Assembly: GCA_037349105.1 (NCBI GenBank)
Contig: JAYJMM010000037.1
Location: 806,001 to 870,000, forward strand
Direction: 5' to 3'
Length of the DNA: 64,000 bases
Source: Limnomonas spitsbergensis
Taxonomy: Eukaryota; Chlorophyta; Chlorophyceae; Chlamydomonadales
Positions 20,357 through 64,000 of the stretch are shown in pieces. A program made the translations under genes and the position numbers. Below the pieces are notes generated by a model. That model did no database searches and was not told the DNA's origin. It saw only the letters and a list, made by a program, of their open reading frames with translations. Each line of letters begins with the position of its first letter. Within the stretch, counting starts at the first letter, position 1.

Positions 20357-23300
20357 CTACATGATTCCGAGGTCAAAAGCACTGCCCTTGCCCCCGTCAT
20401 CCTGATACACAGGCACGACGCCCTTCTGGCAGATCAAGGCAGTGCGTGACTCACAACTGAACCACCTGCAGGACATTGAGGACGACGCCTCGCTAACATG
20501 GTACATAAATAGTACAAGCTGGCCTAATAAAGTCATCCACCAGGTCTCCACCGGGCTGACCCAAGGGGAGGCCCCCCCCTCAGCTTCCAACCGAGCTGAC
20601 CCAATGGAACTCACTCCTCAGGTTCCAGCCAGGCTGACCTAACAGAGCCACCTCCAGCTCCTAGCTGGGCTGAACTAATAGAGGTCATCCATATGGCCCC
20701 CATTAGATGGGGGCATGTTCCCGTTATCCTCTGGGCCCCACTCCACCACACTCCCGTCCCTGCAGTCAGAAGGAAAAGAGTAATGTCAGAAAGAGTACTG
20801 TCGTTAAACAGACCTACGCTGCCATTGGAAAGATTAATGGTGTTGTCTGAGTATCGTTTCTGCTGTTACAGCATTCTTGATCCAGCTGTCAGCCTTGTTC
20901 GAAAAGACCAAACAGGAGGAGCAGGATGCGAGAAACTGGTCCAGCAGTAGTACAGCGTGCATGGGACGCCCCCCAAACGACGTGGAACCTATGCCCCTGT
21001 ACAGCATAAGGACACTCACATGGTGGACCCTAACTTCCTTTTCCTTTCTCCCAACGGGACAGTTGGGCGCCCACGCTGCCGAGCCTTTGTGAGCAGGGCC
21101 CAGAGGTGTAATGTCATTGACATGGTGGACCATGATACCCCCCCCCGTTCCCTCCCCTGCACCAACTCACCAGGCAAGGGGTGGCTCCCCTCAGCTTCCA
21201 ACCGAGCTGACCCAATGGAATTCACTCCTCAGGCACCCCCCCCTGCACCAACTCACCACGACACCGTTGTGAGGCGCGGGTCGTATGGGTGCCAGCTGCA
21301 GTCACGGACCAGCGCCTGGTGGTGTGCGAGGCGCTGCACCATCTCCCCAGTTACAATGTCCCACATGCGCACAGAGCCGTCCATGCCACCACTGTATGCA
21401 AGGGAGCACGTGGGGGTGTCAGCGAGTGAATTCAAACACTCAGCTCAAGCAGCGCACTCGGGATTTCGTGAGAACATAATCGATTTAGCTCATTCCATTC
21501 ACAAAGGCCCTCCCCCCCGCAATGATTGATTCAGCCAACCAGCCAAGACTCTGCCAGATTGCCACATGCACGCTGCACCCCACCAGCCTACTAGTCAGCG
21601 TCAGCCAGCCAGCACTTCACACTACCCGCGCCAGCAATTCATACCTGTAGATGTACCGTTGGCCTGTCGTGAACTGAGGGCTGAAGTACGCCCTGATGAG
21701 CGTCTGGCGGACCTGCGGAGGAGCAGGAATGCAGCGGGCGGGCATGCAGGTCAAACAAAACAGGAGGGAGACCCGATCGCCGGGTCTGCTTAGGCTGATA
21801 AGGTGTGATCAAAACTAGTTCAGGGCTACAAACGAAAGGAGAGCTGCACATTCAGCGATCACAGCAAGGCTCGTGCCTATTCCTAGCTCTAGGCAGACAT
21901 AATCAAAACGCAAAAGTCTTGATTCCAAAGTCAAGGGACTCCACTGCCCAGCGACAGCTTCCCAAACTTCCACACCAGGGAGGCAGCCAGCGGTACCAAG
22001 GTGAAGACAGGAAGAGGGCACAGGAAGTAAGAGCAGGTACATGGGTCCATGCTCCCCCCCTCATTCAAGTCGGTTACCTCATGACCAGTGATTATTTTCG
22101 TGGTTTTGGCCATTCATTGTTGGGTACTGAAATTCTCGCAACGAGCGCTTCAGGCGCGAAAAATTCCCGATCCGAAGTGTTTCTCACTTGTTTTCGGATT
22201 TTTCCGGTACTGAGCGACTGTGTTGGACTCCACGACCAATAATTGACCGACACCGTGTTTCTGTATGAGTCGTACCCAGTACTGAATAAAATAATCACTG
22301 CTCATGACCCCTAGGGTTAAGCCCTAAACCCAAAACCCAAGCCCAGTGTGTCCAAGTTACCTCATGGCCAGTGAACTCTGCGCTTGAGTGGTCGTATGGG
22401 TTTAGTGTTTAGCCCTAAACCCTAACCCCCCAGTGTGTAAGTTACCTCGTGGCCTCTGAACGTGGCAATGGAGTGGTCGTGCGGGTGTCGCACGTCATAG
22501 CCAAAGCCTGGATACTGCATCCACCTGCAGTCCCAGCGGCAATGAGGGAACAGGAGGGGAGCAGGTCGCGATGCCATTTCAGTGACAGGGGGTATCGTTT
22601 ATTTTTTATTTATGACAGCGAGTAGGAAAGGAGGGGGATGATGCGCCATCATGAATTGAGTACTAGTGAGGTGAGGCACACAGTGACTAATGAGGCAGGG
22701 GGGGTCAGGCGGGGGCAATGAGCAATATGGCTTATGATGTCCGGCACTTTCATTATGCCCCCTGACAGTGAGAGCATCGGGTTTAAGGGCTGGGTGGATA
22801 AAAAAACATAAGTTAGATTTAGCCAAATTCACGCACCATCGGTAAGGAATGAGGTCCTTTGCAAGTAGCCTAAGAGTTTTGAAATTGAAGTCTCAGGGTT
22901 TGGGGCAAACTGTATGAACATGCAGCTGATATCACCTTGAACACAAATCGCAGGGTCTGGTAATTAAAGTACGGAGGGGAACCTCAAAACAGGCCTCGGG
23001 ATTTGTGGGCTAAAGCAAACGCATATTGCCGCCCACCTGTAATTCCATCTGAGGCAGGGCAGGGTTCAGAGTTAAGGGTTGAGTTTAAACCCTTGACCCC
23101 TTATGATAACCCTAATCGCCGCCCACCTGTAATTCCATCTGAGGCAGGGCAGGGTTCAGAGTTAAGGGTTGAGTTTAAACCCTTGACACCTTATGATAAC
23201 CCTAATCACCGCCCACCTGTAAATCCATCTGAGGCAGGGCAGGGTTTGAGATTCCAGGGTTGAGTTTAAACCCTTGACCCCTAAAACCCAAACCCTGAAC

Positions 23301-26300
23301 CCCCATCGCCGCCCACCTGTAATCCCATCTGAAGCGGGGCACCCCTGGTCCTCCTGCCAGCTCCTTGGCCTGATGGTCCGTCATCATGCAGCTACGAATG
23401 TCCCACAGCTTGATGGACTGCGGGCACCGCAACAGGTTTACGGGTTGAGCACGGATCACGTTCCGGGCAAAGCACGGATCAGGTTCGGGGTTGAGCACGA
23501 ATCAGGTGCAAAGTTTGGGTTGGAGGGTGGGATGATGATAATAGTTTGGGATATGGGAGCCCCGTTATGGAATGAAGCGTACAATCAACGCATCAGGTGC
23601 AGGGTTTGGGGAGGAGGGTGGGACACTGGGCTGAGGATCAGGGTTTGGGACATGGGAGCCCTGTTGTACGTGTATGGAATTGCAGGTATGGAATGAAGCG
23701 TACAATCCACGGACGGAAGGCGCAGGTGCATCAAAGGGCACTGAGGTGGAGGTCAGCAGGCGCCGTGTGGCAAGGTGAAGAATGGAGGTCCAATGAGATT
23801 CCACCTCTGGGCCCTGCTCTGAGGCTAGGCCGCAAAGAATGGAGGGTTTGAGGGTTCAGGCAGCACACTGGCTATCTAGGAGATGAGTGGCGGTTTGAGG
23901 TTCATACTGTTTTTTTCTACAAAAGAGGAGCAGCAATTCGAGAGCAGTTGCCTTGTCCTGGGCATGGCTCCGAAGGCACGTGCATGGGTTGTTCTTCTGG
24001 ATGCACCTCCATAGTGAAGTAGAACAGCAACAGGCGTGAATTGTGAAGTTGGAATCCTGTGGGTTGGAATCAGGGGTTTATAGAAACCAGCATCGCAGTC
24101 CATTAACGCCACACACTACCTCCTGAAAGGAGTCCTACGTACAGCTGTACAGGTCACCTGCATACAGGCTGCCCTACCCTCACCCACCTGATCCTTACTA
24201 TTGCTGATGAGATACCTGCGTACAGAAAAGGGAGGAGGAGAGTGATGTGCGATGAGCAAGCAGCAAACGAAAAATGAGGAGCGGCGTTTTATGCGTCGTG
24301 ATTTAAGCGTGACAAGGTGCGTCCATAGATGAGGGTGTGTGCATAAAAGCAAGAGCTTTTGCCCTTGATTCCCTGATCCCCCCTGCCTGACCTCCCTCCA
24401 GAGCTGCACCTGTCGTCCCATTGACCTCCCCCTCCCCAACCCTCCCCCTGATCCCCCCTGCCTAACCTCCCCACTGAGCCGCACCTGCCATCCCACTGAT
24501 CTCCCCCTCCCTAATCCCCTCCTCCCTGATCCCCTCCCTCCCCTCCCTCCCCTCTTGAGACCCCGCTCCCTGACCTCCACCCTGATCTCCTCGTAGAGCC
24601 CCACCTGCTGTCCCCCTGATCCCCCCTCACTGACCTCCCTTAACATCTGAGCCTCACCTGCCATCCCCCTTCACATCCAGAAGTGTGAGCCCCTCCGTAT
24701 GTCCCAGCAGCACACCCACTGACCTCCTCTCCCCTCCCCAATCTCTCCTCCTGCCCCCCCCCCCTCACTGACCTCCCTTAACATCCGAGCCTCACCTGCC
24801 ATCTCCCTTTGCATCCAGGTGTGTGAGCCCCTCCGTGTGTCCCAGCAGCACACCCACTGGCTGGCAGTGACCCCTCTGATCCAACATACGACGATCCCAG
24901 ATCTATGGGGGGAGGGCAAGATATGAACAGGGGCAAGATATGGGAGCAGAGGAGGAGGAGGAAGAGATAGAGGATGTAATTTTACCCAAGGGAGATCCCC
25001 ATATCTAGGAATGGGGGGGGTGACAAGCTATAGGAATTAGGAACAGAGGAGGAGAGGGAATAGAGAGGAGGATGCAATGTAAACCAAAGAACAGTATCAG
25101 ATCTGATGGGGGGTAAGATATGGGAGCAGAGGAGGTGAAGAGAAAGGACAAACAGGGAGTTATGTAAACCAAAGGGAGGTCCCAGATCAAGGGGGAGGGC
25201 GCATCTGGAAGGATTATCAGGGTGGAGGATGACGATAGTTTCCTTTGAGCTATGCGAAAGTCCCAGATCCAAATGGGGGGGGGGGGGGGGTGATATGGAA
25301 AACAAGGGAGTTGGAGATGAGGATGCACTCACAATCAGTGTGCATGGGGCCTGTGCTCTCACTGGTGAGTACCTGAATGCAGCCAAAGGCGTGGCAAAAG
25401 CTCATTTGGAGGTTGAGGTCAAGAAGAAACGTTTGTAGATGTTGGTTTGTAGATGTTGGTTTGTAGATGTTGGTTCAGATGATGGGGCTTATCACAACGT
25501 CTCTGAGGTGCGCAGTAACCCGTTTTGATTAGGGATCGTTGGGTTTGTTAAGAGCTGTGTGATGAACAGGACCTCTTAAAAATCAACGATCCAAGTCATC
25601 ACCCCCCCCACACACACTGAGTGCCTACAAACCTGGCAGCCCACAGCAGCCAAGCGACAGCCTGGAAAACACAGGCTGAGAGCTAACAGCCAGCAACCCA
25701 AGCCACACAACCTGCTGCTCACACATTTCCACACCGCAGACCAAAGATCTCGAGGATAATCTGACAAATCCACCAGAACGGGTTCCAAAAACCAATTTCA
25801 TTTTCCTGGCACCAGCAATATTTTTTCTTTTGGTAAAACCGCTAAAAAAAACCTGGCAGTGCTCTTTACAATAAAACCACTAAAAATCGTAGAAACCCCA
25901 AACCTCTCGATGCCAGCCAGCCTCACCTTGACAAAGCCATCATCACTGCCGGATGCAATGATGTTCGGCGTCGTATCCATGTAAGCAACCTACACACATC
26001 AGCAGTACAGGGCAAGGATGAAAATAGTGGTAGCAGTACAAGAAGCCTGGCAGTACAGGAGGCATGACAGTACAGGAGGCATGACAGTACAGGAGGCCTG
26101 GCAGTATAAGGTGTCTGGCAGTACAAGAAGCCTGGCAGTACAGGAGGCTTGGCAGTGCAGGAGGCCTGGCAGTACAAGAAGCCTGACAGTACAGGAGGCG
26201 TGGCATTACAAGAAGCTTGACAGTATAAGAAGCCTGGCAGTACAGGAGGCTTGGCAGTACAAGAAGCCTGACAGAAGGAGAGGCAGGTCACAAGCGCAGC

Positions 26301-29300
26301 AAGCAGCGACTGCAGGCGCAGCTTCCTCTACGGCGCAGGGTGCCAGGTTTAGGGGTAGTAATCCAAAGCCATGATAGCGTTCCTTAAGCTACTAGGTCTG
26401 AGATGGAATACTGTTGCACATGTGATGTACGTCTGGACTGTGCAATATGTCTATATATACTGCATCCTGAGGAGGCACAGACAGTCGGAGCGAGGCAGTG
26501 CTCTTTACAATATAAATACTGTTAAACAGCTGCACCAGGTGTGCAGGTTGCTACAGTAATCAGGGAAGCTTTCGAGGCAGCTGAGGCGGGACAGCACCAC
26601 AAGATACAAGTTGAAAATTAATGGACGTGCTTGACAGCAGCGTTGTGTTACAAAAATATCCATCATTACAGAAATATCCATAACCTTAACATTCATTCCT
26701 TCAGAATTATCCATTATTTCCCGCACTGACCGAGTTGACGTCGTCCTCATGGCCGTCCACAAAGGCCACGACGCGGCTGGATTCCACATCATATACATAC
26801 ACCCGCTAAATGAAGAGGAGTAGAGGCCAGGGTTAAAGGAGAGGAGGGCAAGCAGGCAATGGTGGATGTGGCAAGAGAAGAGGAGGGGAGGAGGGGTAAA
26901 AGGAGAGGAGGTGAGGCAGGCGGTGGTGAAGGTCATGGTCAAGGCAAGAGGAGAGGAGGAGGGCAGGCGACGGTGAGACGAGGGGAGAGGAGGCAAGCAA
27001 GGGCGGAGGCATGGGAATAGGGTGGAGACAGGAGCATCACATGGAAATGGTTCAAAACGTCACCCAAATGCAATCCTTGCAAGATCCTCATGCGCATGTG
27101 CGCCTAACTGCGTGCATGCATGCATGTCACGCCATGCAGTGTTTGTTTTTTCATGTCTCGGCTACATGTCAGCTACACTCCAGCCGCTGGCCGGAGGCCA
27201 CATTTGTGGCCAGCCTTGCTGCTTTGGTCACCAGATGCAGGCCGGTCCAGGTTTGGTCCTAATTGGGCTTTTGGCGGCCGCTGGGCGGCCATCTGTAGTT
27301 ACATTTGTAGCCACACAAAGAAACACTGACACCACGTTTCTTTATCACTTCCTCACCTCATCGTTAGTGCCCGCAATGATCTCCCGCCCATCTGAGCTCC
27401 ACTTGACGGACCAGATCCCAAACTCGCGGACGCTGCGCTGCCCCTCGTTCGTCGAGTGCATGTCAAAGCACAGCGCCTCATGGATCTGAGCATGAATCGC
27501 ATGTAAAAGATCGTGGATCAGTTACGGGTATATAGCATCCATGTTAGCATCTTGAGAGGGCGATAAAGAGCCGTTGGAAGGTGAGATGCAACAGGAGTGC
27601 ACCAAACCTTTGCTTGCCAGAGGCGCCACTTAGCAGAGACCTCGGCGCAACCCATGGCTGGGACCGCTGCTAACCTTGGTGACGTTTGAGATGCTATGAT
27701 TGCTAGCCGCTATAGTGGCGGTTGCCAACAGGAGTGCACAAACCCTGCACGGCCAGAGGCGCCACATGGCAGAGACTGCGTCGCAACCCATGGCTTGGAC
27801 CGCGCCTCACTTAGATGACGTAGAGATGCTCTGATTGCTCTCCACACAATATTATCGTGGCAGTTGCCAGCAGGAGTGCACAAACCCCTGCATGGCCTGA
27901 GGCGCCACATGGCCGAGCCGGGACGGCGGCTTACCTCGGTGACGTTTGAGATGCTCTCCACAATGCTGTCGTGGCGGTTGCCGACCGCTAGCAGGTGCAC
28001 AACCGGGGAGATGCTCGCGTAGATAAGGAAGCGCTGGTCGGGCGAGACACATGCGTCCGTCACCGTCCACCTAGATGGGGAGGAGTGAGGGAGAAGGGGA
28101 GGGGGGGGGGGCGCTGGTCGGGTGAGACACATGCGTCCGTCACCGTCCACCTAGGTGGGGAGGAGCGAGGGAGGGGGGGGGGAGGGGGGGGGGGGCGCTG
28201 GTCGGGTGAGACACATGCGTCCGTCACCGTCCACCTAGGTGAGGAGGAGCGAGGGAGGGGGGGAAGGGGGGGGACGCGCTGGTCGGGTGAGACACATGCG
28301 TCCGTCACCGTCCACCTAGGTGGGGAGGAGCGAGGGAGGGGGGGAAGGGGGGGGGGACGCGCTGGTCGGGTGAGACACATGCGTCCGTCACCGTCCACCC
28401 AGGTGGGGAGGAGCGAGGGAGGGGGGGGGGAGGGGGGGGGGGGGCGCTGGTCGGGTGAGACACATGCGTCCGTCACCGTCCACCCAGGTGGGGAGGAGCG
28501 AGGGAGGGGGGGGAGGGGGGGGAAGCGCTGGTCGGGTGAGACACATGCGCCCGTCACTGTCTACCTGAGGGGGGATGGAGCGAGGGGTAGGGGGAGGGAG
28601 CGAGGGGGGGAGGGAGGGAGGGGAGCGTGTTAGGAGCAGGTGTCATAGTGGCAAGTCTGTCCTAGTCGTGTCGAAAATGGGGTCATGAGGCATGACATGA
28701 ATCCCAAACATGATCGTGACTTGTCTCGATAATAGAGGCGGATGGCCCATTCTCAAAGCCTAATTTAGAATGGATCCATTACCTGTATGTCCGTAGTAAT
28801 TTACTGGTAACTAAATATAACTGAAATTGAAGAGCTGATGGACGAGGATCCAGCAGAGAAAATGTAGACGGTTTACCGAGGCTTGAGGCGAACACCGCGA
28901 GACAGCCACGGAGGCTAATCCACCCAGGCTATGCAAGAATAACAGGATATTGATGTACCATACCGTAGATTTGAATTGCCTTCCCCCAGGTGTGAATTAC
29001 GAAAATTTGAATTTTTCATGCTTCCCTCGTGCCGAGAAATGGATGTAAACTCTGCATTTCTCACTGAATTTGTTGACAAAGGAGTTCGTAATTGAATGAA
29101 TCCCTCATTCTTCAACGACGCCAATTTTGAGTCAAGGCATTTCAATTGTTGCCTTCACCAGTTCACCCCACCTGCACATCCTTGTCCGCACGTCCTTGCG
29201 CAGCTTCCACCCTCTCTCAACATCATACAGCCTCACGCGCTGATCCTGTGGGACAGGGTTTCAGGGACAGGGTTTTGGAGACAGGGTTGCGTGAGGGGCA

Positions 29301-32300
29301 CGTGGAGTAGGGGTGATGCAGTACAAGGGGAGGGGGCAGGGCATGCCATCACAACAAACCAACCAGGCGACCAAGCAGCCCTGCGGGGATGACCTGTGGC
29401 AAGCCCTGTTGAGACCATGCCCACCTGGGATGATCTTCTGTGGCCATGCTGGGATATAACCCTGTTTAATTACCCTGTTTGATTATATCCTTTAAAACCC
29501 TTAAATTACTCTTTAAGTATCCTTTCATCACCCTTTAATTTAATTATCCTTTAATTACCCTGTGGAACAACTGGAACGTCGCTGTGACCTGCTGATGCAG
29601 CCAGCATTAGGTAACCTTCAAGGTAACACAATCCGGCTGAACCTGTGCCATGTCGTGCCGCATTGTGCTGCCTTGGGAATCTAAACCAGCTTTACCTGTA
29701 CCGTATCGTGCCATTTTGTGCTACCTTGGTAGCACAATCCGGCTGAACCTGCGCTGTATCGTGCGATTGTGACACGGAAAAAGTTCATCTCAATGTGGCG
29801 TTTATTCTTGTGAGCATTTTGGTGTAGGCGTTTATTGTTGTGTGCATTCTGGTGTAGTTGTACACCCTGTATGTAAACACTGATGCCCTCTAGTGCGGTA
29901 ACCCAAGCAGCAAATCACATCCACAGTACACCAGCACACCTTTCACAGCACAGGCAGGCCCTCCCTCCGGTAAAAAAAATCTACCTGAAAAGCGGCCACA
30001 AAGAAAGATCCGTCCTGGCTGTACTGCCCGATGTACGCACGGGCGCTGACGGCCTCGACACGCCGCAGCGGGTGCAGGGGCAGGGTGCTGGATCTGCCAA
30101 TGTGCAGGTGCCGCTGCGCCTCGCGGGAGAAGCCGCCCCGCTCACCCAGACCCAGGTCCCGCTTGAGGATCATCCGGGAGGTGTTGACCAGCCGCGCGTC
30201 AGGGCACTGCAGGGGAGGTGAGGGGGATAGGCGGGGCAGCAGGGGGACAGCAGGTGAGGTGTAAGTCATGGAAGCCAGCATGGGCAACGCACACCACCAC
30301 CAAAAGCGCACCAGCCACCAAGGAAGGAGCGGGAGGCCCGGGTGGATCTTATTTTGTTGCATGGTAGCCCACCTAGTGTACGGCCAAACGGGTGGCTTCC
30401 TTAATCTATGCCCCAGGGTATATTTATTTATTTATTTATTTAAGTCGGCTGGGGGTTCGACAGTGTCTCTTGCTTCGTGACTCAGCTACATGTCAGCTGC
30501 AATCCAGCCTCTGCCCAGAGGCCCCACTTGTGGCCAGCCATGCTGCTTTGGCCAACAGCCGTAGCCCGGACCAGGTTTGCTCACACTCGGGCCTCTAGTG
30601 GCGGCCTGTCGAAGGTACACTCGTCGCCGAAAAAAGAAACACTGGGGTACAAGGAGCCAGCGGGGGCAGGTTGTGTGCAGAACACTCATTGAGACTGGGA
30701 AATAAAAACCGTGAACGGAACGGGGTTGGGATTCTGCACCTACCGAGCGGTCCTGCAAAGGACGGTTAAATATCCGGCCCGCCAGTAACTGTCAGGGCAG
30801 GCAGTACTGCCGCCGCCAGCACCAGCCAGGCAGGCAGTACTGCATTTGCCAGCACCTATCAGGGCAGGCAGTACTGCCGAGCCCAGCACCTGCCAGGCAG
30901 GCAGTACTCTACTACATCCGCCAGTACCAGAGGTCATACCCTGGATCCCCAAAAGGGGGGGAAGAAGCGATATCTATTATCTACTCATGCAGTGCTTTTA
31001 AGGGAGGAAGGGAGCGTCTCCCCCCCTAGACAATCTGAAATGCAGCCCTCATTATTGTCATCGTGTCCTCATCAAGCCCCCCCCAGTCCCAACCCTCATT
31101 CATCACCCTCAACCAGTGTTTGTTTTTTCGTGTCTCAGCTACATGTCAGCTACACTCCAGCCCCTGGCCAGAGGCCCCGTTTCTGGCCAGCCATGCTACT
31201 TTGGCCACCAAACATAGGCCGGTCCAGAATGTTGTACCGATGGGGGGCCCTTGGTGCCATGGGGTGGCGCGTCCAAGGTGGCTTTGATGCGATATAAAGA
31301 ATCAATGCCCTCAACCCCTCACCGAAACAGCTGGAGCGCTCCCTGCTGCTGGCTTGGGTCCCTCCTTGTCCTTATCCTTGTCCTTCTTGCTCGCGCTCCT
31401 CGTGACGCGATGGGTGGCGCACCCGCCCTTCGTGGCGGACCCGTCTGCGCCAGCACCTCGACCACCGGTGCAGCTACTCGCGAATGCGGCCAAGACTCCA
31501 AAGGCACCGCCGCTGCTGCCGCCACTGCGGGGCAGCGCTGGTGCCGGCGCTGCAGCTGTAGGACAGGATGCTGCTGCCGCCGCCGCCGCCGCCGCCACAG
31601 GTGCCGGACGGGTTCTTGGCGGGGAGTCATCAGGCTGCCTATGGATCATGTCTTTGCCTTGGTCCAGTGATGGCTGGGTAAGCAGCAGCCACAAGAGTGC
31701 AGGGAGTAACATACCTGGTGTTAGAAATAAAAAAATAAACGATACGCCCTGAGGCGTGGATTGAGGAAGCCACCTATTTAGCCGCGGCATTAGGTCAGCT
31801 ACCATGATGTCTGGTGTAAATGCGGCTGACGCAGGTAGGTGGGCGTCAGTGTGGAGAGGAGGGATAGGAGGGAGTGCTCAGTGCTGTACCACTTAATGAG
31901 GTATCAGGGATGTTGTTATGGGTGTGAGTGTGGAATGGAGACGGGGGTTGTGATGTTATACAATGAAGAAATATGAAGTAGGGCACTGTATTCGGTCTGT
32001 GTCCTTTTTATGCATGAGACACTAAAATGTAATGTACTGTAGTTGTGCTTTGCCTTCCCTCATAGTTAACGTTGTTTGGGGTTGAGGGATTCATAAATAT
32101 ACCAATGATCAATTATCGACGCCAGTCTTCAGTCAGAAATGAAGAGTTTGGTCAATAATCTGCCCAGAGGACAGCATTAAAAGAAATCGTTTTTTCATAC
32201 CCGAGGGTAGGCAAATCAAATATACTGTACTACAGTGAACTATAAACCAAACACCCCTAAACCCTAATACACCCAACATCACAGAGAAAGAAGCAAATCT

Positions 32301-36900: not shown

Positions 36901-39900
36901 GCTCCTCTCTCATGTCCCTCCCAACTCCTGTTTCTTGCCCCTCTCCCCCCACACTCAACTCCTATCCTATGTCCTCCCCACTCCTCTCCCCTCCCATTCC
37001 CCCCCCCCCCTCTCCCCTTATGGAATACTCGCCGCTCAGTCCTCCACCCCCCTCTCTCCTAAACCCTCTCCCCTAAACCCTCTCCCCTGATGAAAACCTC
37101 ACCGCTCTGTCCTCTGTCTGTTTGAGCTGCAACTGCAGGCTACCCATCTCCTGCTGCATGGTATCCTTCTCCTGCTGATCATGACGGCTGATGCTGGCAA
37201 CCTGGTGGAGAAGGGGAGCAGGGAAGAGAGGTCGAGAGGAAGGTTGGATCATGTAATGTTGAATGATATCGTTGTCGGCTGATGCTGGCAACCTGTTGTA
37301 GGGAGGGGGGGAGGGCAGGGATGAGAGCTTTAGAGAGAGGTCGGGTCATATAAATATATAATCTTGCATGACATCGTTGACGGCTGATGCTGGCAACCTG
37401 TTGTAGGGCGGGGGGGGATGAGAGGTGGGGGGTGGGCAGGGGTGGAGGGGACAGGGGTGGGGGAGGGCAGGGATGAGAGGTTGAGAGAAAGGTCGGGTTG
37501 TATCACGCTGCATGATGATAGCCTTCTCCTGCTGATCATAACGTCTGGGGCTGGCAACCCGTGGAGGGCAGGGTTTAGGACAGGGACAACAGGCTAAACA
37601 TAGGGGTCAGGTAATGTAACAAAGTCACTATGAAAAACCCGGCACAACCACTTGTAAAACACTGCATCCTGTCCTTTTTAGTCAGGGGTGTATCAGATAT
37701 AACCCCAGTGTAACTCCTGCACAACTTCAGTAGAAACCCTGAACCTTGGTATAGCAGGATGCAATGCATGGCAGAGGTCGGACGACTTGAAAGCTGCCAA
37801 GGCCAGAGGGTTGACCGAGTCCAAACCCTAAACCGTCAAACACACGTTATTAATCCACAGGGTCGACAGGATCCACCCCGTTTTGCTCAGTCTGGCCCTT
37901 TCGAAACAGGCTCTGGGCCGTCTGGCCCTTTCGAAACAGGTTTTGCTCAGTCTGGCCCTTTTTGCTCAGTCCACCCCGTTTTGCTCAGTCTGGCCCTTTT
38001 TGCTCAGTCCACCCCGTTTTGCTCAGTCTGGCCCTTTTTGCTCAGTCCACCCCGTTTTGCTCAGTCTGGCCCTTTTTGCTCAGTCCACCCCGTTTTGCTC
38101 AGTCCACCCCGTTTTGCTCAGTCTGGCCCTTTTTGCTCAGTCCACCCCGTTTTGCTCAGTCTGGCCCTTTTTGCTCAGTCCACCCCGTTTTGCTCAGTCT
38201 GGCCCTTTTTGCTCAGTCCACCCCGTTTTGCTCAGTCTGGCCCTTTTTGCTCAGTCCACCCCGTTTTGCTCAGTCTGGCCCTTTTTGCTCAGTCCACCCC
38301 GTTTTGCTCAGTCTGGCCCTTTTTGCTCAGTCCACCCCGTTTTGCTCAGTCTGGCCCTTTTTGCTCAGTCCACCCCGTTTTGCTCAGTCTGGCCCTTTTT
38401 GCTCAGTCCACCCCGTTTTGCTCAGTCTGGCCCTTTTTGCTCAGTCCACCCCGTTTTGCTCAGTCTGGCCCTTTTTGCTCAGTCCACCCCGTTTTGCTCA
38501 GTCTGGCCCTTTTTGCTCAGTCCACCCCGTTTTGCTCAGTCTGGCCCTTTTTGCTCAGTCCACCCCGTTTTGCTCAGTCTGGCCCGTTCGAAACAGGCTT
38601 TGGGCGGGTGCGTCAACTTTGTGACAACAACAGGCTCTGACCCATAAGTCACCCAAGACCCCATTTCTTCCCACATGAGGGGGGGGTGGTGGAAATCGCA
38701 GTACAGGGGGGTAGGGGGCAGCCCAAATAGGAAGTAGGAAGGGGGAGACGGAGACGGAGAGAAAAGGGAGGGCCCCTCCGCTCACCTCCTGCAGCTTTCT
38801 GTCGTAGTCCTGGACGGGCCGCCCAGTCTGCTCTGCCAGCTCCTTGCTAAGCTTCTGGCTTTCCAGTCTTAGTGTCTTGTAGTCTTGGGCCAGCGTGGCA
38901 TTGGCTTTGCACTTGCCCACTTCTTGGGCCAGCAGCTTCTCGAGGTTACCGATCACCTGCCAGTTTTGTGACGGAGTTGTTTGAGTGTTAGGGGAAGAAG
39001 CCGTTAAGATGCTACAAGTCCAACCGGGACCAGCTGGCACACGGACCTTCTGCTGCATAGTAGTCCAAACATATGGTGAAGGTAGTTGGGTTATGGGGTT
39101 AAAGGTTTGGGGTATCTTCTGATGTAGGTAAGAGTTTTGAGAATGGGGATCTTCTGATCTAGGTAAGGGTTTTGAGAATGGGGATCCTCTGATCTAGGTA
39201 AGGGTTTTGAGAATGGGGATCCTCTGATCTTGGTAAGGGATTTGAGAATGGGGATCTTCTGATCTAGGTAAGGGTTTTGAAAATGGGGATCTTCTGATCC
39301 AGGTAAGGGTTTTGAGAATGAGGATCTTCTGATCTAGGTAAGGGTTTTTGAGAATGGGGATCTTCGATCTAGGTAAGGGTTTTGAAAATGGGGATCTTCT
39401 GATCTAGGTAAGGCTTTTAAAAATGGGGATCTTATGATATAGGTAAGGCTTTTAAAAATGGGGATCTTATGATGTAGGTAAGGGTTTTGAAAATGGGGAT
39501 CGTATGATCTAGGTAAGGGTTTTGAGAATGGGGATCTTCTTATCTAGAAGGTACCACGGGTACAGAATTTTGTTGGGCGGGATGGTGTTGGGCAAGTGTG
39601 AGAGTGGGCTTTCATGCCACTACGAGCAAAGGGCACTCGAGTCGTAAGGGTCAGATCACTCCGACTATATATACTGGCGCTCCACCCACACACCTAAGTA
39701 TCTCTTTTAGCAAGACTCGGAGCCCCTTTCCCGCAATTGCTCCCCTTCACCCATCTGCCTCCTCTCCCTCCTTCCGCACCTGCTCCTGCGTCTTGATCGT
39801 GTTCATAAAGGCAGAGCGGCCGCTGGGCTTGCCGCCCTCCCCGCTCTGCTTGGCCAGAGCCATGTGAGCGCCTTGAAGCTCATGGTACCTGAGTGCAGGG

Positions 39901-42900: not shown

Positions 42901-45900
42901 ATTAACCCATCTATATTCGTAAGCTTCAACACTCCCTCATGCCACCGCGTCCAATGTCACCCAACAGCGCCTCCCTGCACCCCACTCCCCCATGCCCCCA
43001 CTCCCCCCGCACATACATTGGTTGGCCGCGTCTTTAATTACCAGCTTCTCCACCACCTCATGCTCCCCAGTCCGGTCCAAAGGCAGCTGATCCCAGGGTA
43101 GGCGCAGCCATGCAAGCGGGCGCGTGCGTGTGCGCTCCTCATCGGTAGCAGACTTGGATGCAACGTCCAGCAAGTGTAATTCCACCACCAGGTCACACTC
43201 CCCAGTGCCAGGCTGGCACAACAGATGCGCCTGCGCCAGTGATCAGGGCAGGCTTGCTTAGGGTCCAGTGCGCGTCTAAACCCTAGGCAAGCGGGGAGAG
43301 GGGGGGGGTAGCACGTAGCGGTGACAGTCGCAAGAGGGTGAGAGGGGAATAAATCTTTCACCGTCCCGCCTGCTGGGGTGTGTGAGCTGAGGCAGCAGCT
43401 TGGCTGAAGGGGCCGTTGCATGAAGGCAGAGCATTCCAGGGAAACGGATTCCCATGCACCATCCAGGCACGCACTATGAAAAGCTCGGCTCCCACCTAGC
43501 TTGCCCGACTGCCTTTCGGACTCGCGGCCAGCCCCAATTGCTTGCCCGCCTGCCTTTCAGATGCGTGGCCAGCCCCGCTTGCCTGCCTGTCTTCCGGACT
43601 CGCGGCCAGCCCCCCTTGCTTGCCCGCCTGCCTTTCAGATGCGTGGCCAGCCCCGCTTGCCTGCTAGCCTTTCAGACTCGCGGCCAGCCCCCCTTGCTTG
43701 CCTGCCTGCCTTTCAGACTCGCGGTCAGTCCGCTAACACCCCCCGATCATCGCCATCCCGAGGTTTCAAGCTCCTCATCTCAAATCCGCAAAAGTTTCGA
43801 AATCGAGTTTGAATTCAAATTTTAATCCAGCCTGCACCCCCGCACCATGTGATCTGGCGGCCATGCTGATGACATGAAGCCGTCAGATTGGATGGGCAGT
43901 GCGTCCAGGATGCCCGACAGACCTTTGAGACCGGGTAGCTGCGGCCCGCCGGCAGAGGCCCCCGTGTACGCCTCCGATATCTGCAGGGAGGGGGGCAGTA
44001 AGGAAGGCGAGGGTGGATGAGCGGGAAAGGTTGGGTGGGTGTTGAAGGACGGTCAAGCAGGAGAGCTGGGTTCAAGACCCGGTAGGTGTGGCTTGCTTGC
44101 AGAGGCCCCTGTGTACGCCTCCGATGTCTTCGGGGAGTGTGGATTCAAGGAGGGCGAGGGCTGATGAGATGGTTAGAAGGGGTGGGTGTTGGAGGACGGT
44201 GAAGCGGGATAGAGCGGTTCCGACTTAGTAGCTGCGGCCCGCCTGCAAAGGCCCTTATGTACGCCTCCGATATCTGCAGGGAGTGTGGATTCAAGGAGGG
44301 CAAGGGCGGTTGAGATGGAAAGAAGGTGTGGGTATTGAAGGACGGGAGAGCGCGGTTCAGACCCACTGGTCAGAATTTTTTGAGGGCAAGGGCGGTTGAG
44401 ATGGAAAGAAGGGGTAGGTATTCAAGGACGGGAGAGCGCGGTTCAGACCCCGTAGCTGCGGCTTGACTGCAAAGACCCCTGTGTACGCCTCCGACATCTG
44501 CGGGGAGGGGGGCGGTTGAGCTGAAGGGCGGTTCGGCGGGAGCAGTAGTGCATGGGTTCATCTGTAGAAGGGCGTGCACAATGAGGGATTAAGGGATTGT
44601 GTTTAGGGTTTAGGGTTTAGGGTTTAGGGAGAGAATTCACCTGGCCCAACCTGACCCTTGACCCTGATTCTAGACCTGAACCCTGACTCTACACCAGAAC
44701 CCTGACTCCATATCTGAACCCTGACTCTACCCCATAACCCAGATTCTAGAGCTGAACCCTGACTCAACACCAGAACCCTGGCTCCATACCCGAACCCCAA
44801 ACCCTACCTGCTGCAGGGCACGTGAGCAAGACTCGTCCGACTCAGCATTGACGGGGTGGTACAGCGTGTCGATGTCTAGAGCCTTGGGCATGGCCACGAC
44901 AGCCACGGGAGGCGGCGTCCCCGGAGGCGTCCGATCGCGTGAGGCAGGCGCGGTGCTCTCCCCCTCGTCCCCCTCGGCAACGGCTCGCCCTCCGCTAGGG
45001 GAGGCTGGCGGCGGTGCCGCGGCTGCCGATGGAGAGGCCTTAGGCGGCGTCCGGGTGCGTGAGGGCTGGCGGACGACACCCGTGGCGGGGGGGTGCGGGG
45101 AGACAGGCTTGCGCGGCTCCAGGCGCCACACAGCAAACACCTGTAGGCGACGTTAAGAAGTGGGGATGCAGTGTCAGTTCCATGGGGACTCTTTGGGGAT
45201 TCAATGGTATTTTTAGGGGAGTCTAAAGCGTTAGAGTGGGATTCAGCAGCAATTTAATAAGAATTCAATGCGAGTTGAATGATGGCTCAACAAGCAGAAG
45301 AGACAGGATCAGCAGCAATTCAGTGAGAATTTAATGGCACTTTATGGCGACTCAACCAGCATTAGGTCGGGGTTCAATAGCAATTCAATAAGGATTTAAT
45401 GGCAGTTTCATGGCGACTCAACCAGCACTAGGTAGAGGTTCAGCAGCAGGGCCCTCACACATAGCATGTTGCGAGGGTTCCAGCCTAGAGGCGGCGGCGA
45501 GGTTTTAGGGTTTAGGGTTTTGGGTTCAGCAACAGTGCCTTCTCACATCCGCGTGTTGCGAGGGCTCCAGCCCAGAGGCGGCGGCCAGGCGCGCCAAGGC
45601 GCCACTCTTCGCCATCCTCGCTTGCATCGCCAGAGTGGTTGAAGAGCCGGAGGCCAGCTGCTTGAAGCGCCTAGAGGGGGGCGGCAGGGGCAGCAGGGGG
45701 GATGGGGTCGGATACCCTGATAACATCATTGATACATTTTGAGGGCTTGACTTCATCCACAGTGCAGCGCACGAGTGCAGCCATGCATTAATTCTGAAAG
45801 GTTGGAGAGGCCCGTCAAGACATTGGGTGGCTTGAATTGGGAGGGTGCCTCCAGATAAATCTCCAGATCCACACTCAAGAGATTGAGGCTGAATTGTTTT

Positions 45901-48900
45901 CTTTCTCAGCCCTGCCAACCTAGCTGGTTATATTACGTGAGTCAGGTCATGCCCCGCCTCGAACCCGTCCCCCCCCCCTGCCCTTCTTGCCTGAGCTCCA
46001 GTCTTGGCGTGTCAGTGAGGCACAGTGTCACATAGAGCGCAACGCTGCTCCCCAGAGGTCCACCTGGCATTAAGATCTTGAGGCTGCACAAGAAGGAGGA
46101 GAGTTTAGGGTTCAAGATTCCGACCCATGTCTTTAGAGTTTAGGGTATAGGGTTCATAATTTCGACCTATCTCTTTGCGCTGAACGAGAGGCCTGAGTTA
46201 TCATGATTCAGAGTTTAACCCTAGAACACTGAGGGTGAAGAATCAACGATAAACATGAAAACCTAAGGGTGTGTAATTCGGGATTGTTTCCCTAGACCCT
46301 AAATGTTTATGATCGAGGTATAAACCCTAACTCCTATACCCCATAGTGTTCATCATCCAGGGTTTAACCCCAACCCCTAAACTCAAAGACTTCATATTCT
46401 GGATTTCACCCTTTCAGGATACATGATTTAATGTCCAACCTTTCACCCCTGTTATCCTGCCCAACCTATAATGCACGCTGGGCAGCATGTGAGCTAACGG
46501 CAGGTTGCACTTGAGCATGAGCTTGCTGTTTGCGTCGTTGACGATGGCGAGGTGCAGCTTCTCAGTAGCTACCTCATCTTCCCTGAACTGAACCTGCGGG
46601 ACGCATTGCGCCACAGGAGGGGAGGCAGGGAGGGGATAGGGCAGGGCAGGAACTCAGATCAAGGGGGTAGGGCAGGGACTCAGATTGAAGGGGGTAGGGC
46701 AGGGACTCAGATTGAGGGGGGTAGGGCAGGGACTCAGATTCAGGGGGTAGGGCAGGGACTCAGATTCAGGGGGTAGGGCAGGGACTCAGATTGAGGGGGC
46801 AGGGTATGGGCTCAGATTGAGGGGGGTAGGGCAGGGACTCAGATTCAGGGGGTAGGGCAGGGACTCAGATCAAGGGGGGTAGGGCAGGGACTCAGATTAA
46901 GGGGGCAGGGCAGGGACTCAGATTGAGGGGGCAGGGCAGGGACTCAGATTGAGGGGGGTAGAGCAGGGACTCAGATTGAGGGGGGTAGGGCAGGGACTCA
47001 GATTGAGGGGGGTAGAGCAGGGACTCAGATTGAGGGGGCAGGGCAGGGACTCAGATCAAGGGGGTAGGGCAGGGACTCAGATTGAGGGGGCAGGGCAGGG
47101 ACTCAGATTGAGGGGGCAGGGCAGGGACTCAGATTGAGGGGGGTAGAGCAGGTACTCAGATTGAGGGGGCAGGGCAGGGACTCAGATCGAGGGGGCAGGG
47201 CAGGGACTCAGATTGAGGGGGCAGGGCAGGGACTCAGATTGAGGGGGGCAGGGCAGGGACTCAGATTGAGGGGGTAGGGCAGGGACTCAGATCGAGGGGG
47301 TAGGGCAGGGACTCAGATTGAGGGGGCAGGGCAGGGACTCAGATCGAGGGGGCAGGGCAGGGACTCAGATTGAGGGGGCAGGGCAGGGACTCAGATTGAG
47401 GGGGGCAGGGCAGGTACTCAGATTGAGGGGGCAGGGCAGGGACTCAGATCGAGGGGGTAGGGCAGGGACTCAGATCGAGGGGCCAGGGCAGGGACTCAGA
47501 TTGAGGGGGCAGGGCAGGGACTCAGATTGAGGGGGCAGGGCAGGGACTCAGATTGAGGGGGCAGGGCAGGGACTCAGATTGAGCTGGTAGGGCAGGGACT
47601 CAGATTGAGGGGGGTAGGGCAGGGACTCAGATTGAGGGGGCAGGGCAGGGACTCAGATTGAGGGGGCAGGGCAGGGACTCAGATTGAGGGGGCAGGGCAG
47701 GGACTCAGATTGAGCTGGTAGGGCAGGGACTCAGATTGAGGGGGTAGGGCAGGGACTCAGATTGAGGGGGTAGGGCAGGGACTCAGATCGAGGGGCCAGG
47801 GCAGGGACTCAGATTGACGGAGTAGGGTAGGGACTCAGATTGAGGGGTTAGGGCAGGGACTCAGATTGAGGGGGCAGGGCAGGGACTCAGATTGAGGGGG
47901 CAGGGCAGGGACTCAGATCGAGGACTGGAGGGATCACGGAGAATGGTGCCTAGCTTCTTTGACCCATCCTAATTAAGGTTCAGGTATTTCGATCAAGATT
48001 TCATACTAAGGCCAAGTCACTTGTGAAGCAGAAACAGCTCCACGTTGAAATGTACAGCTCCACGTTCAGATGTACAGCTCCACGTTCAAATGTACAGCCT
48101 GATACGTCTTGTCCACCTGCATAAGCCTGTTCAAACCTAAGCCCTCCACCCTCAGAGTTGCAGTCCCCCTCTCACCTGCAGCAGCTCTCCTCAGCAGGGG
48201 TCAGGCAAGTTTTGGTCACCTGCATGATCCTATTCACACTTCACCCTGAACCCTCAGTAGCAGCCCCCCCCTCACCAGCAGCAATTCTCTCCAGATATGA
48301 TGGCCAACTGCATGACCCTGTAAAACCTGGCCTCAGCCCTCAGCCGCAGCTTTCACATGCAGCAGCTCACCCTAGCAGGGGTCAAACGCCTTCTTGGCCA
48401 CCCGAATGACCTCACATCCGTAAGCTTCACCTGCAACAGCTTTCCAAGACCACTTGCCCAGCCGCATCACCCTGTACACCCTAAGCCAGAAGTATCACCC
48501 CTCTGCCATCTGCAGCCGCTACCCTCAGTAAGGGTCCAGTGCCTTCTTGCCTACCAGCAGTATCCTGTTCCACCCTAAACCCTATACTCTCAGCAGCAGC
48601 CCCCCTCTCACCTGCAGCAGCTCCCCCCAGTAAGGGTCCAGTGCCTTCTTGGCCACTCGAGTGACACGCTGTGCGGGCTTGCCCTCCTGGGCGTCCTGCT
48701 GCAGCTTGGCCGCCACGAAGGTGCTGGGGGGCACGTCCTGGTTGGTAGGCCTTTGTAGGGGGGAGGTAGGGTTTAAGGTTAAGGGTTTAACCCACGAAGG
48801 TGCTGGGGGGCACGTCCTGGTTGGTGGGCCTAAGGAGGGGAGGTGGGGTTTAGGGTTCAGGGTACAACCCACGAAGGTGCTGGGGGGCACGTCCTGGTTG

Positions 48901-51900
48901 GTGGGCCTAAGGAGGGGAGGTGGGGTTTAGGGTTCAGGGTACAACCCACGAAGGTGCTGGGGGGCACGTCCTGGTTGGTGGCCGAAGAGGGGGAGGTGGG
49001 GTTTAGGGTTCAGGGTACAACCCACGGAGGTGCTGGGGAGCACGTCCTGGTTGGTTGGCCTAAGAGGGGGAAGGGGGGAGAAGCGAAGGTGAAATCCTAA
49101 GCCCTTAACCCTAAAATAGGTGCTGGGGGGCACATCCTGGTTGGTGGGGGGGAGGGGGGAGGGTGGCACGTCCTGGTTGGTGGGGGGGAAGGGGGGGGGA
49201 GGGGAGGGGGGAAATGGGGAGCTATAAAGGTGAGACCCTCAATCTTAACTGGTTCAGGGGCAGATATTGGCAAGGTGGAAAGGCAGGGTAGATAAATAGG
49301 TAAATCTTGGGGTGGCTATGTGAGTGGAGGTCAGTAGCGGGTGGAGGGGTGAGAGATAGGGTGGAAAAGCAGGGTACATAAAAGTAAAAGCCCTGGACTT
49401 GTTGAGTGATCGGAGGTCAGCAGCGGGTGGGCAGAAGGGGGGGAAGGTATCAAGGTAGATCTATGGTTCAGACCCTGCACTCACCATCGCTCTAGGGAAA
49501 TTTTTTCCTGCCCTGGACACGATCAGCAGCGGCGTGCATTGCTACAACTGGAGTTGAGGGTCTATGGTTCAGACCCTGCACCTACCTTGACACTAGGGAT
49601 GGCTTCTCCTGCCCTGGACACGAGCAGCAGCGGCAAGCATTGCTACAACTGGAGTTGAGTGTTTATAGTTCCGCGATTCCGCACCATACCGCTACCCGCA
49701 CTCACCCTCTCACTAGCGGCAGGTTTTCTGCGCGAGTCACAAGCACCATCAGCGTGCACTTGTGCGCCTGGTTTGATTCTGAGTCCTTGCCTGTCCGCCG
49801 CCGCTCCGCCGCCTGCCGCATCAGCACCTCGTCCCGAGGCAAGGACACCTCAGCATCGACCATCATGAGCTCAAGCAGCAGCTCACGCCCCGAGCGCCCG
49901 CCACCTGAGGGTTGTTGTTACAAAGTTGACGCAACCACCCACAGCCTTTTGCGATACGTCCAGGCAGAGCGAACCGGGGGGGAACAAGCTACAAGAAGTC
50001 AAGAGCCAAACCATGATTACAAACACGGGGTCAAGCCAGAAGGGTTCAGGGTTTAGGTTCAGGGGCACATCAGCATCGACCATTATGAGCTCCCACCACC
50101 TGATTAGTCCAACAGTAGGGTCCAGGGTTCAGGGTTTGGGTTACGGTTCAGGGTTTGGATTTAGGGTTAGGGATCTCTGTGGGAGAAGCCATGCAGAGGC
50201 GGGGGAGATGAAGCGACCATGCAGTGAGAGGAAGGAGAAAAATGTCGTTTTCAACAGCCAGCCAGGCTGCTAGGGCCAGCGTGCATAAATCAGTTCGGTT
50301 TGGGCCATAATCGGGCCTTGGGCGACCGCGTGGTGGCCTGCCAATGGTGGCCTCGTAGCGGTGAAGGAAAACTACGACCATAAAAGCATACCCTAGGACC
50401 GTCTCTTATCCCTTCACTCCAAGGTCATGTGCCTCACAAGGGCCGCGCTCATCCAACATGGACGTATTGGCCACACCGAGCGAGTTCAGGTTGTGGGATA
50501 TAGGATTTTCTGGGGTCTAAGGTAGATGTTGCCATCATGCAGTCGGAGGTCTTGCTAACAGAATATGGACACGCTAGCCATGCTCACGGAATCTCCACCA
50601 TAGCAAACGGAATAGCACTTGTGCCTAGTCCTGCTGCCCCGGAAGGTCCTCCTCACAAAACATGCATGTGTTGTTGCCACAAAGTTGACGCAACCACCCA
50701 CAGCCTTTTACAAAAGGGCCAGGCAGAGCAAATCGATGGAGGAGACCAGAAGACGAAAACCCTGCATGTACTGGCCTAGCCCAGAGAGTTCAGCACAGCT
50801 AAACCCTAAACCCTTATGAAAACGTAAAATCCCTGAACCCTTATAAAACCCCTACCCCTTTTGAAACCATAAACCTTTATGAAACTCTTACCCCTTTTGA
50901 AACCCTAAGCCCTTATGAAACCCTTAACTCCCTAAACCCTTATGAAACCCCAAACTCCCTAAACCCTTGTGAAACCCTTAACCCTTATGAAACCCTAAAC
51001 CCTTGTAAACCTTAATCCTGATGAAACCCTGAACCCTTATGAAACCCTGAACCCTTATGAAACCCTAAACCCTTATGAAACCCTTAACCCTTGTGAAACC
51101 CTAAACTCCCTAAATCCTTATGAAACCACAAACCCCACATTGCTGCCCCCCACGATGGTCTTGCTCACCGAACATGGACGCGTTGGCCATGCCCAGAGAG
51201 TTCAGCAGATCTCCCGCGCCTGAAGGTTGAGAAGCCAACACCACGGGCAGGGTTATGCGCTCGCCAGCAACCAGCCGGCTGGCCATTTCGCCACCAATCT
51301 GAGGGAGTTCGGGTACAGGGATACAGAGGCAGAGTGAAATGTTCAGGTCTTCAGGGTTCCAATTCAGGGTTTCGGATTCAGGGTGCAAGCTACAGGATTG
51401 CAGGATTGTAATCGCAGATTGACACAGCTCTGGGTCTTTTTCGTGACGAGCTTGGTTGACAGCCTGTAATTGCCGGTGTCTGTTTGGGGATGATTGTGTA
51501 GGGTGCAGGCACAAACCCTCAAAACCAGATATGTGAAGTAAAGGAACACTAATAAGTAATAAGCCTTGACATTTTTCGTAAGTAAGAGAGGATGGCAGCC
51601 AGGAGTCCCCGAGCCAATCATGAGGGTACGGAGTGCCCAAGAGATGAAGGGGGCCAGGAGTCCCAAAGCAGGTTATGGAGGCCAGGAGTCCCAAAGCAGG
51701 TTATGGGGGCCAGGAGTCCCAAAGCAGGTTATGGGGGCCAGGTGTCCCAAAGCAGGTTATGGGGGCCAGGAGACCCAAAGCAGGTTATGGGGGCCAGGAG
51801 TCCCAAAGCAGGTTATGGGGGCCAGGCGTCCCAAAGCAGGTTATGGGGACCAGGAGTCCCAAAGCAGGTTATGGGGGCCAGGAGTCCCAAAGCAGGTTAT

Positions 51901-62562: not shown

Positions 62563-62606
<44 letters not shown>

Positions 62607-63654
62607 GGGGGGCATGCTGCCAGGTCAAGAAACATTATCCGAAGAAGCATACTGGCAGGTTTTTTGATTGCGGGATTTGCGGCACAACGCAATTGTAACA
62701 TCCAACATCATGCATCCCATACCTAGATCCTAAGTTCCATACCTAGATTTTAAATTCCACACCTGGATCCTGAGTTTCATACCTATATGCTGACTTCCGT
62801 ACCTAGATCCTGAGTTCCATACCTAAATCCTGAGTTTCACACTCGGATCCTGAGTTCCGTACCTACATCCTGAGTTCCACGCCTGGATCCTGAGTCACGC
62901 AGCTAGATTCTGATTTCCATTCCTAAATTATGAGTTCCACATCCGGATCCTGAGTTCCGTACCTAGATCCTGCGTTCCACACCTGGATCCTGAGTCACGC
63001 ACCTGGATCCTGATTTTCACACTATCCACGTCATACATGCTGTATATAATGGTGGCGGCCACAGGCACAAACTGGACGTAGTGGATGCTCCCCTCCGGAG
63101 TTGACGGCGCTTGAGACATGATAGTCACAAGCTGTAACGTGCTCAGTCCCAGAGTCTGCACGATGCATGGGCGAGGGCGGGGGGAGGGTAAGATGGAGTT
63201 CTGTGCTTGTGTTTGTGTATGGGGGGGGAAATTGAGTTGTGTGGCAGTGTCACTTGGGGGACTGGGGTGGTGAGACTTGCGGCGGCCAAAAACTGGTGGG
63301 CAAGGCATCAAAACTGAGGTTTTGGGAGAATGGGGGGGGTGCAGCCATCAGTACTTGTAGAGCTTGGCGCCAAATCCATGCACAGGAAATCCCCTTTTAG
63401 CCCGAGTATCTCTGTCCCCGCACCCTCGTCAGCCCCTTGCCCTGTTTCGCCACACCCATGCCTGCGTCCATTGGCTCTGTGCGCACCTCATACGACAACT
63501 CTTGGAGGACCTTCTTTGTCGCTCTCTGAGAAAGTGTTCCGCTGCCGTCTGTGTCCGCAGCCTTGAACGCCGTCAGCAGCATGCCCTGCAGGCCGTCCTG
63601 GTTGCTGAGGATGTCGTTTGTGACGATCTCGTCCTTGAAGCGCTCGACTAGGAC
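61531..63654 (-). CDS. EF-hand calcium-binding protein, C-terminal part (5' end outside window)
   Basis: Four exons on the minus strand, all phase 0: 63487-63654, 63003-63155, 62233-62376 and 61531-61728, giving the last 220 residues and the stop. Two EF-hand loops are clear, DTDGSGTLSQRA in the first exon and DADENGSVDWYE in the last; a third (DVEGTGQLTLPE) is weaker, lacking the usual Asp/Asn at its third position. Between them, LGLSTLQLVTIMSQA and FVPVAATIIYSMYDVD look helical. The C-terminus is MAHQQQEA. The arrangement resembles multi-EF-hand proteins found in algal cilia, but I cannot name an orthologue. A calcium-sensor role follows from the loops; location is inference. The gene continues past the right edge. 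The acceptor of exon 62233-62376 is accompanied by a MITE that carries a second copy of that acceptor. Confidence 0.85.
62357..62512 (-). mobile_element. Truncated hAT-like MITE (from 62393) with duplicated acceptor
   Basis: CAGTGTTTGTTTTTTCGAGA starts at 62393 and the interior (ggcccatttgtggccagcca, tgctgctttggccacc) follows. It then runs into cctgcttcacggcctgcg (near 62488-62506), a copy of the exon edge at 62364-62381. The right half of the element is missing. The junction uses the shared ggccacc, suggesting microhomology-driven rearrangement. Using the upstream acceptor would add about 25 residues and then a stop (HRPECI). Confidence 0.8.
62558..62604. repeat. GA dinucleotide microsatellite
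   Basis: About twenty ga units (gagagagagaga) in an EF-hand gene intron, preceded by gagcgagc. Confidence 0.95.
62700..63020 (-). repeat. 31-bp array built on EF-hand exon 63003-63155 donor
   Basis: On the minus strand the exon ends AATCAGGATCCAG with donor GTGCGTGACTC. The intron then repeats CAGGATCCAGGTGTGGAACG-type units about ten times, most keeping AG/GT at the same place. The last exon codons and donor are thus the seed of the array. Confidence 0.9.
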
Positions 63655-64000
63655 CTGGGGGGCGGGGAGCACAACAATGGGAGGGGGAGCGGGGACATCA
63701 GTCCTAAGCATTGATTGCTTCAGTCATACAACATTGAATACGTAAAGCATAGAATGCCATACCCTAGGATGTTCAACTAGGACCTGGGGGGCGGGGAGCA
63801 TACCAAGGGGAGGGAGGGGGACATCAGTCCTAAGCATTGATTACTTCAGTCATACAACATTGAATACGTAAAGCATAGAATGCCATACCCTAGGATGTTC
63901 AACTAGGACCTGGGGGGCGGGGAGCATACCAAGGGGAGGGAGGGGGGACATCAGTCCTAAAGCATTGATTGCTTCAGTCATACAACATTGAATACGTAAA
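63640..64000 (-). repeat. ~126-bp tandem repeat carrying EF-hand exon 63487-63654 acceptor, about three units
   Basis: The exon start and acceptor (ctcgactaggacctgggggg on the plus strand) recur at about 63772 (ttcaactaggacctgggggg) and 63898. They carry the shared intronic segment gcattgattgcttcagtcat...cataccctaggatg. The third unit runs off the window edge. Confidence 0.95.

Follow-up and report, generated by a model that had tools for sequence, protein, structure and literature searches.

The window, i.e., the whole stretch of 64,000 nucleotides that was analysed, covers bases 806001-870000 of contig 37 in the 260.2 Mb assembly (124 contigs) of Limnomonas spitsbergensis. Its modelled genes are intron-rich and all lie on the minus strand. 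One of them is a WD40 gene at 20.7-30.2 kb, a DCAF11/LEC14B (WDR23)-like gene (20738..30188, minus) with a WD40 Pfam hit, for which 13 exons were found by spliced alignment and whose N-terminus is incomplete in the model. The alignment used a purpose-written spliced protein-to-DNA aligner and a profile of 16 homologues, and placed exons 1-7, in listed order, at 29985-30188, 29172-29245, 27935-28070, 27357-27485, 26731-26805, 25927-25989 and 24796-24902, and exons 8-13 at 24188-24215, 23317-23417, 22446-22524, 21645-21712, 21257-21391 and 20738-20759. The last of these, with 22 bp, is the least certain exon of the model; its intron was recovered in three runs. When the exons were joined by hand and used as a query, the best match was to LEC14B/DCAF11, with 56% identity over the full query, and among the matches listed 118 of 120 homologues covered 100% of it. 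The named DCAF11 homologues among these listed matches came from mosses, land plants and algae such as Closterium and Cymbomonas. A gene region without a name follows at 34-51 kb (minus), where the minus-strand frames of 34-49 kb gave no Pfam match above the cut-off, and an EF-hand gene lies at 61-64 kb (minus).

The window is also rich in repeats, with 128 rows reported within it by Tandem Repeats Finder (TRF). Two arrays are very large, one at 12355-15522 (62 bp x 51, 97% matches) and one at 53598-57678 (122 bp x 34, with a 242 bp period too, 92-93% matches). A near-identical pair of reading frames (RMSCIQISLVAGGPLQLDV...) lies at 595-1221 and 9110-9604 on the minus strand, about 8.5 kb apart, and both frames are adjoined by similar repeats, namely 19-37 bp units of the CCCCCCAAAGAGATAAA type and CAG-rich arrays.

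It had been claimed from the sequence that splice junctions throughout this region are copied in tandem into the adjoining introns, and the five edges cited for the DCAF11-like gene (22446, 23317, 24796, 27935 and 28070) proved to be the exact edges of exons in the protein-supported gene model. One case is the acceptor-edge array at 28031..28610 (minus), in which TRF found about seven copies of an 81 bp unit, each made of about 40 bp of exon start and about 41 bp of intron; at the true acceptor (28070|28071) the copy covers positions -41 to +40 with 74/81 identity. At the other end of the same exon, donor-edge copies occupy 27589..27955 (minus; junction 27934|27935) with a TRF period of 136, the nearest detected copy lying 260 bp intronward. 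The donor edge at 24795|24796 was duplicated once (24621..24859, minus), the single copy being located 138 bp intronward and identical at 94 of 101 positions, 64 bp of which are exonic. Three intronic copies with a 90 bp period, separated by telomere-like filler (see below), accompany the real donor junction 23316|23317 in an array at 23028..23341 (minus), and a weak duplication (53/73 identity) with an offset of 85 bp, again with telomere-like filler, was found at the donor junction 22445|22446 (22312..22486, minus).

Similar structures were found in the other gene regions, all on the minus strand. In the unnamed region, the acceptor edge 39888, which belongs to an ab initio predicted exon (39780-39888), has a copy at an offset of 143 (39859..40079), and the donor edge 40574 has copies at an offset of 75 that were also detected by TRF (40408..40608). 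Copies of the acceptor edge 43980 (43928..44516) have a TRF period of 147, with a further copy at an offset of 517, and those of the donor edge 48612 (48160..48638) include one at an offset of 436. The acceptor edge 48737 lies in an array of 77 bp x 4.7 with telomere-like filler (48713..49078), where the ab initio model put the exon edge at 48723 instead, and the donor edge 51169 has a weak copy (29/40 when centred) at an offset of 609 (50548..51195). In the EF-hand gene region, an array with 20-bp sub-units and a 100-bp higher period (62717..63019) overlaps the junction 63003, and an array of 126 bp units (63647..64000) is associated with the acceptor edge 63654, the best copy being centred slightly off the junction.

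The direct check of junctions in the window covered the 18 positions that the original prediction had listed, and counted a copy as spanning when it reached at least 8 bp beyond the junction in each direction. Thirteen positions stood up to this check, with junction-spanning copies at the donor edges 22446, 23317, 24796, 27935, 40574, 48612, 51169 and 63003 and at the acceptor edges 28070, 39888, 43980, 48737 and 63654. Three (41949, 36287 and 37201) matched a copy only when the window was shifted off the junction, by up to 12 bp, and for two (45547 and 49714) no copy was found by ungapped matching. Centred 40-mers matched at 30 or more of 40 positions for 9 of the 18. When well-scored exons from ab initio prediction were taken, 9/52 of their edges in the interval 20357..64000 had copies, and with a second filter, applied to the whole window minus the DCAF11-like gene, 14/60 did. 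The chance level was gauged with one order-1 Markov sequence modelled on the stretch of 19.5-30.5 kb, which gave no 40-mer matches, compared with 14.6% in the real stretch.

To obtain a wider sample, exons were modelled at kinesin (PF00225) and chaperonin (PF00118) loci of the same genome, and the DCAF11-like gene was added. An intron was retained only if each of the three runs recovered it and its flank scores were 8 or higher, which left 119 robust introns; four contigs were then swapped for longer versions, whose 41 introns all entered the sample (2 of them had been absent from the three earlier runs), and edges of exons shorter than 24 bp were excluded, so that the final set comprised 292 edges of 149 introns. 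At 31 of these edges (13/146 donors and 18/146 acceptors) a copy was found that extends 10 bp or more on each side of the junction; without the window gene the count was 26/269. Junction copies thus recur in unrelated genes, and the window is richer in them than the rest. In the modelled genes, protein homology identifies the exon-proximal copy as the authentic site. Roughly a tenth of the exon edges sampled are caught in a side-by-side duplication that has left spare, apparently inert copies of the splice site.

Within a search distance of 2.5 kb, 96 copies were found for the 31 edges; every one of them shares its intron with the junction and is in direct orientation, the donor copies downstream and the acceptor copies upstream, and at a threshold where 23 of the 292 edges have a direct copy, an inverted one was found at none. 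Since the copies are all local and direct, they must have arisen by tandem duplication rather than transposition, and their head-to-tail arrangement is that of intronic tandem duplications or minisatellites. The view that no single mobile element is responsible was supported: the copies recur in unrelated genes, and in a genome-wide search made with one unit (28031-28120), which skips very common words, that unit matched its own array only. The duplicated units measure 27-111 bp (median 78), with an exonic part of 12-72 bp (median 39), and the copied fraction declines with distance into the exon. Pairs are 73-94% identical, half of them 84-92%. Local duplicate segments make up 22.5% of the intron sequence and amount to at least 60 bp in 54 of 149 introns. 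In keeping with the supposed enlargement, copies occur in longer introns, the median length being 660 bp with copies and 344 bp without.

The stronger part of the original prediction, that the process is centred on the junctions, was not borne out by the control that had been proposed with it. Junction 40-mers were copied locally in 25 of 297 cases (8.4%), intron-internal ones in 9.3% when averaged by intron and 15.2% when pooled, and exon-internal ones in 2.1%; within the DCAF11-like gene the corresponding values were 4/23, 19.4% and 6.3%. If junctions were random 40-mers of their own introns, 29.4 matches would be expected and 25 were seen, or 13.4 and 15 when only single copies are counted. 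The uncollapsed donor rate was 13 of 123 at the edge and 11, 11, 14 and 20 at 20, 30, 40 and 60 bp intronward, and for acceptors it was 18 of 122 at the edge and 16, 20, 18 and 24 at the same distances. The profile thus lacks a peak at the edge and goes up over the first 60 bp of intron. Undirected duplication, when simulated, gave a profile of the same shape at a lower level. The duplication process thus appears not to be centred on the junction.

Taken alone, the 40-mer comparison is biased as a null, since the intron rate grows with the number of copies that a duplication produces, and duplication events were therefore also counted. In the 119 robust introns 22 of 43 events cross an edge, compared with 8.7 +- 2.4 expected under uniform placement, and with 20 bp required on each side 10 of 35 do, compared with 4.3; before filtering, all 198 introns gave 32 crossings (14 donor, 18 acceptor) with 10.9 expected. 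The edge-to-intron ratio was 1.88 (95% 1.38-2.42; 1.85 in an earlier run) when collapsed by array copy number and 1.49 (1.12-1.90) when collapsed by local copy count, and 1.81 and 1.43, respectively, without the window gene. Simulated undirected duplication with slower decay in exons gave 0.79-1.05 by the array-number count and 0.72-0.78 by the local count, under assumed unit sizes, ages and indel rates, of which heavy indels widen the range to 2.2. A 20 bp criterion gave ratios of 1.40 and 0.98, compared with simulated values of 0.81-0.89 and 0.62-0.72, and arrays having a pair at least 90% identical gave 2.47 and 1.83 with the 10-bp criterion. Within the family-modelled sample the collapsed ratios range from 0.87 to 1.88 depending on the criterion. 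Pooling with ab initio edges outside the window gave 30/348 and a local-count ratio of 1.36 (0.98-1.74); those ab initio edges alone gave 4/79 and 0.95 (0-1.65), which are too few to decide. Under the assumptions of the simulations, edges are raised roughly two-fold relative to undirected placement, and a broad preference for intron ends is possible on the same assumptions.

The observations are probably best explained by frequent tandem duplication throughout introns, which is not aimed at splice sites but is tolerated across exon edges and lengthens the introns. Replication slippage or the repair of staggered breaks, the presumed molecular causes, would duplicate segments of about 30-110 bp anywhere in an intron. 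Where such a segment happens to straddle an edge, the exon-proximal junction would be left unchanged, and the spare piece of exon with its splice site would fall into the intron. Because the exon-proximal junction stays intact, an edge-crossing duplication should be nearly neutral and survive like other intronic duplications, while the same duplication inside an exon would be removed by selection. The outcome would be longer introns with copies of real junctions that are presumably not used in splicing. Alternatively, intron ends and exon edges could be true hot spots, where breaks, R-loops, stalled forks or AG/GT microhomology start the duplications. This is possible but rather unlikely: the excess of edge-crossing events over uniform placement speaks for it, as do the collapsed ratios, about two-fold those of the matched simulations even for the most identical arrays, and the published finding that tandem repeats of Chlamydomonas and Volvox are in excess near the ends of introns (PMC3887541). 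Yet the raw junction and intron rates are equal, the edge is no higher than positions 30-60 bp intronward, the overlap with the exon is broad instead of being anchored at the splice site, and the small ab initio replicate outside the window gave a ratio of 0.95 (0-1.65).

If selection maintained the copies as decoys, as had also been suggested, or as back-ups for splicing, their dinucleotides should outlast the surrounding sequence. The copied donors give this a slight opening, the GT being kept in 55 of 62 when 48 would be expected from flank identity, but the AG of copied acceptors was kept in 26 of 34 with 25 expected, and the nearest copies, with GT in 12/13 (9.5 expected) and AG in 13/18 (13.0 expected), do not change the picture. 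The copied GT and AG appear to decay like their flanks, which fits neutral leftovers. Offsets divisible by 3 occurred at 13 of 31 edges, without a clear bias that would point to selection on the reading frame, and the paralogue lacked a detected copy in 10 of 11 cases (see below). Selection for decoys is thus highly improbable. It is very unlikely, too, that the duplications mainly record intron creation, i.e., intron gain of the type described by Rogers, in which the intron start would copy the downstream exon start in register: at a score of at least 6 this signature was seen in 4 of 140 introns, with 3.1 expected by chance. One of the four is the intron of a KIF2-like gene that would speak for such an origin, being 1215 bp long, missing in the paralogue and largely an array whose unit is similar to the opening 18 bp of the exon that follows, but in each of two paralogue pairs the 10 introns compared lie at matching positions. 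Misassembly usually falls in repeat arrays, and the copies could in principle be assembly artefacts; this is scarcely credible, as the pairs are 73-94% identical (half of them 84-92%) and hence not identical copies, and one edge-crossing duplication is common to two paralogues.

The comparison of paralogues rested on two gene pairs, CCT-like and cpn60, with 20 comparable introns and four-fold-site divergences of 0.70 and 0.32. Eleven distinct edge-crossing duplications were detected in these pairs; one is shared by the two paralogues, and each of the other 10 was seen in a single paralogue. A similar contrast exists at a KIF2-like (kinesin-13) donor, which is single-copy in one paralogue but accompanied by six or seven additional copies in the other. 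Since presence is mostly one-sided, the duplications must be recurrent, and the duplicated state seems to be derived; one-sided presence could also reflect loss or decay in the other copy. The KIF2-like intron mentioned above lies at 2735-3950 of the gene modelled at the locus L040 (C34:291501-297500, read on the minus strand), where it falls at DSDAR|HVPFR of the protein, has GC-AG ends, and is found in one paralogue and absent from the other. Its array has a unit of about 46-47 bp by eye and 95 bp by the array tool.

Several of these features are known from other systems, here compared by way of the accessible parts of the respective reports. In Chlamydomonas reinhardtii and Volvox carteri, green algae with intronic repeats like the present species, repeat density is highest in introns and repeats become commoner toward the intron-exon junctions (PMC3887541); units of 1-50 bp were counted there by position, and copied exon bases or splice sites are not described in that part of the report. 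A tandem duplication across an intron-exon boundary is known from the potato RdRp gene (PMC4974935), where the 3′ side of an intron and the 5′ side of an exon were duplicated as in the acceptor-edge cases, and the same kind of boundary-spanning segment was found here at 31 of 292 edges. In potato, however, a single gene was concerned and a new spliced intron arose, whereas here many genes are involved and the copies are known from the sequence alone. The repair of staggered double-strand breaks has been described in Daphnia as a passive source of intron growth (PMC4202315). Intronic direct repeats, some of them in common with the adjacent exon, and passive lengthening of introns are shared with that case, but the Daphnia repeats are 4-12 bp exon-intron repeats at new introns and the units here are far longer (27-111 bp). 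In Drosophila, novel intron positions arose by tandem duplication (PMC2891723), which adjoins splice motifs as it does here; there the duplicated coding sequence turns into the intron, and here the corresponding signature is at chance level. The original prediction knew of no description of such copies at this density, and indeed none was found in the accessible parts of the literature, including PMC2812944, PMC10400597, PMC6330051 and PMC8226300, although isolated instances had already been published, as had repeats close to the intron ends of green algae. The kind of event is already known; what is added here is how densely it occurs, how the copies are distributed between paralogues, and a decay of the copied sites that fits neutrality.

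If about a tenth of exon edges carry near-identical spare sites, the genome would offer a natural setting in which to test how the spliceosome chooses among similar sites, and the duplications show one route by which introns lengthen. Ab initio gene prediction can be misled in such repeat-rich genomes: in the DCAF11-like gene, a simple ab initio predictor produced, at all three settings, short spurious exons whose ends coincide with copied donors (about 23217, 23127 and 23037).

Degenerate telomere-like sequence (CCCTAAA and CCCTGAA, on both strands) belongs to the most strongly over-represented words in the introns of the sampled genes, and it frequently separates the units of a duplication. 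In the window it occurs at 22312-22480, 41635-41935, 44601-44629, 48713-49078 and 50831-51133. The word CTAAACC was found in the sampled introns at 10 times its order-1 expectation. The motif density is 9.4/kb inside arrays and 2.2/kb outside, a difference inflated by copying, and for its association with copied edges Fisher p values of 0.005-0.14 were obtained, uncorrected for two motif sets at distances of 100, 150 and 250 bp. Because the arrays multiply the motif, this association is only a lead. Clean telomere repeats were not seen at the three contig ends inspected. It is conceivable, though doubtful, that intron ends including the exon edges are break-repair hot spots of about two-fold strength, where telomere-like filler (CCCTAAA/CCCTGAA) is inserted and the adjoining exon-intron segment duplicated, and that the same process within exons can give birth to introns, possibly that of the KIF2-like gene on C34. 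At another locus (L082, C112:1-300, minus), the contig starts within an array whose units carry the donor-like sequence CAG|GTGAGC, and arrays of this junction type may be points where the assembly breaks.
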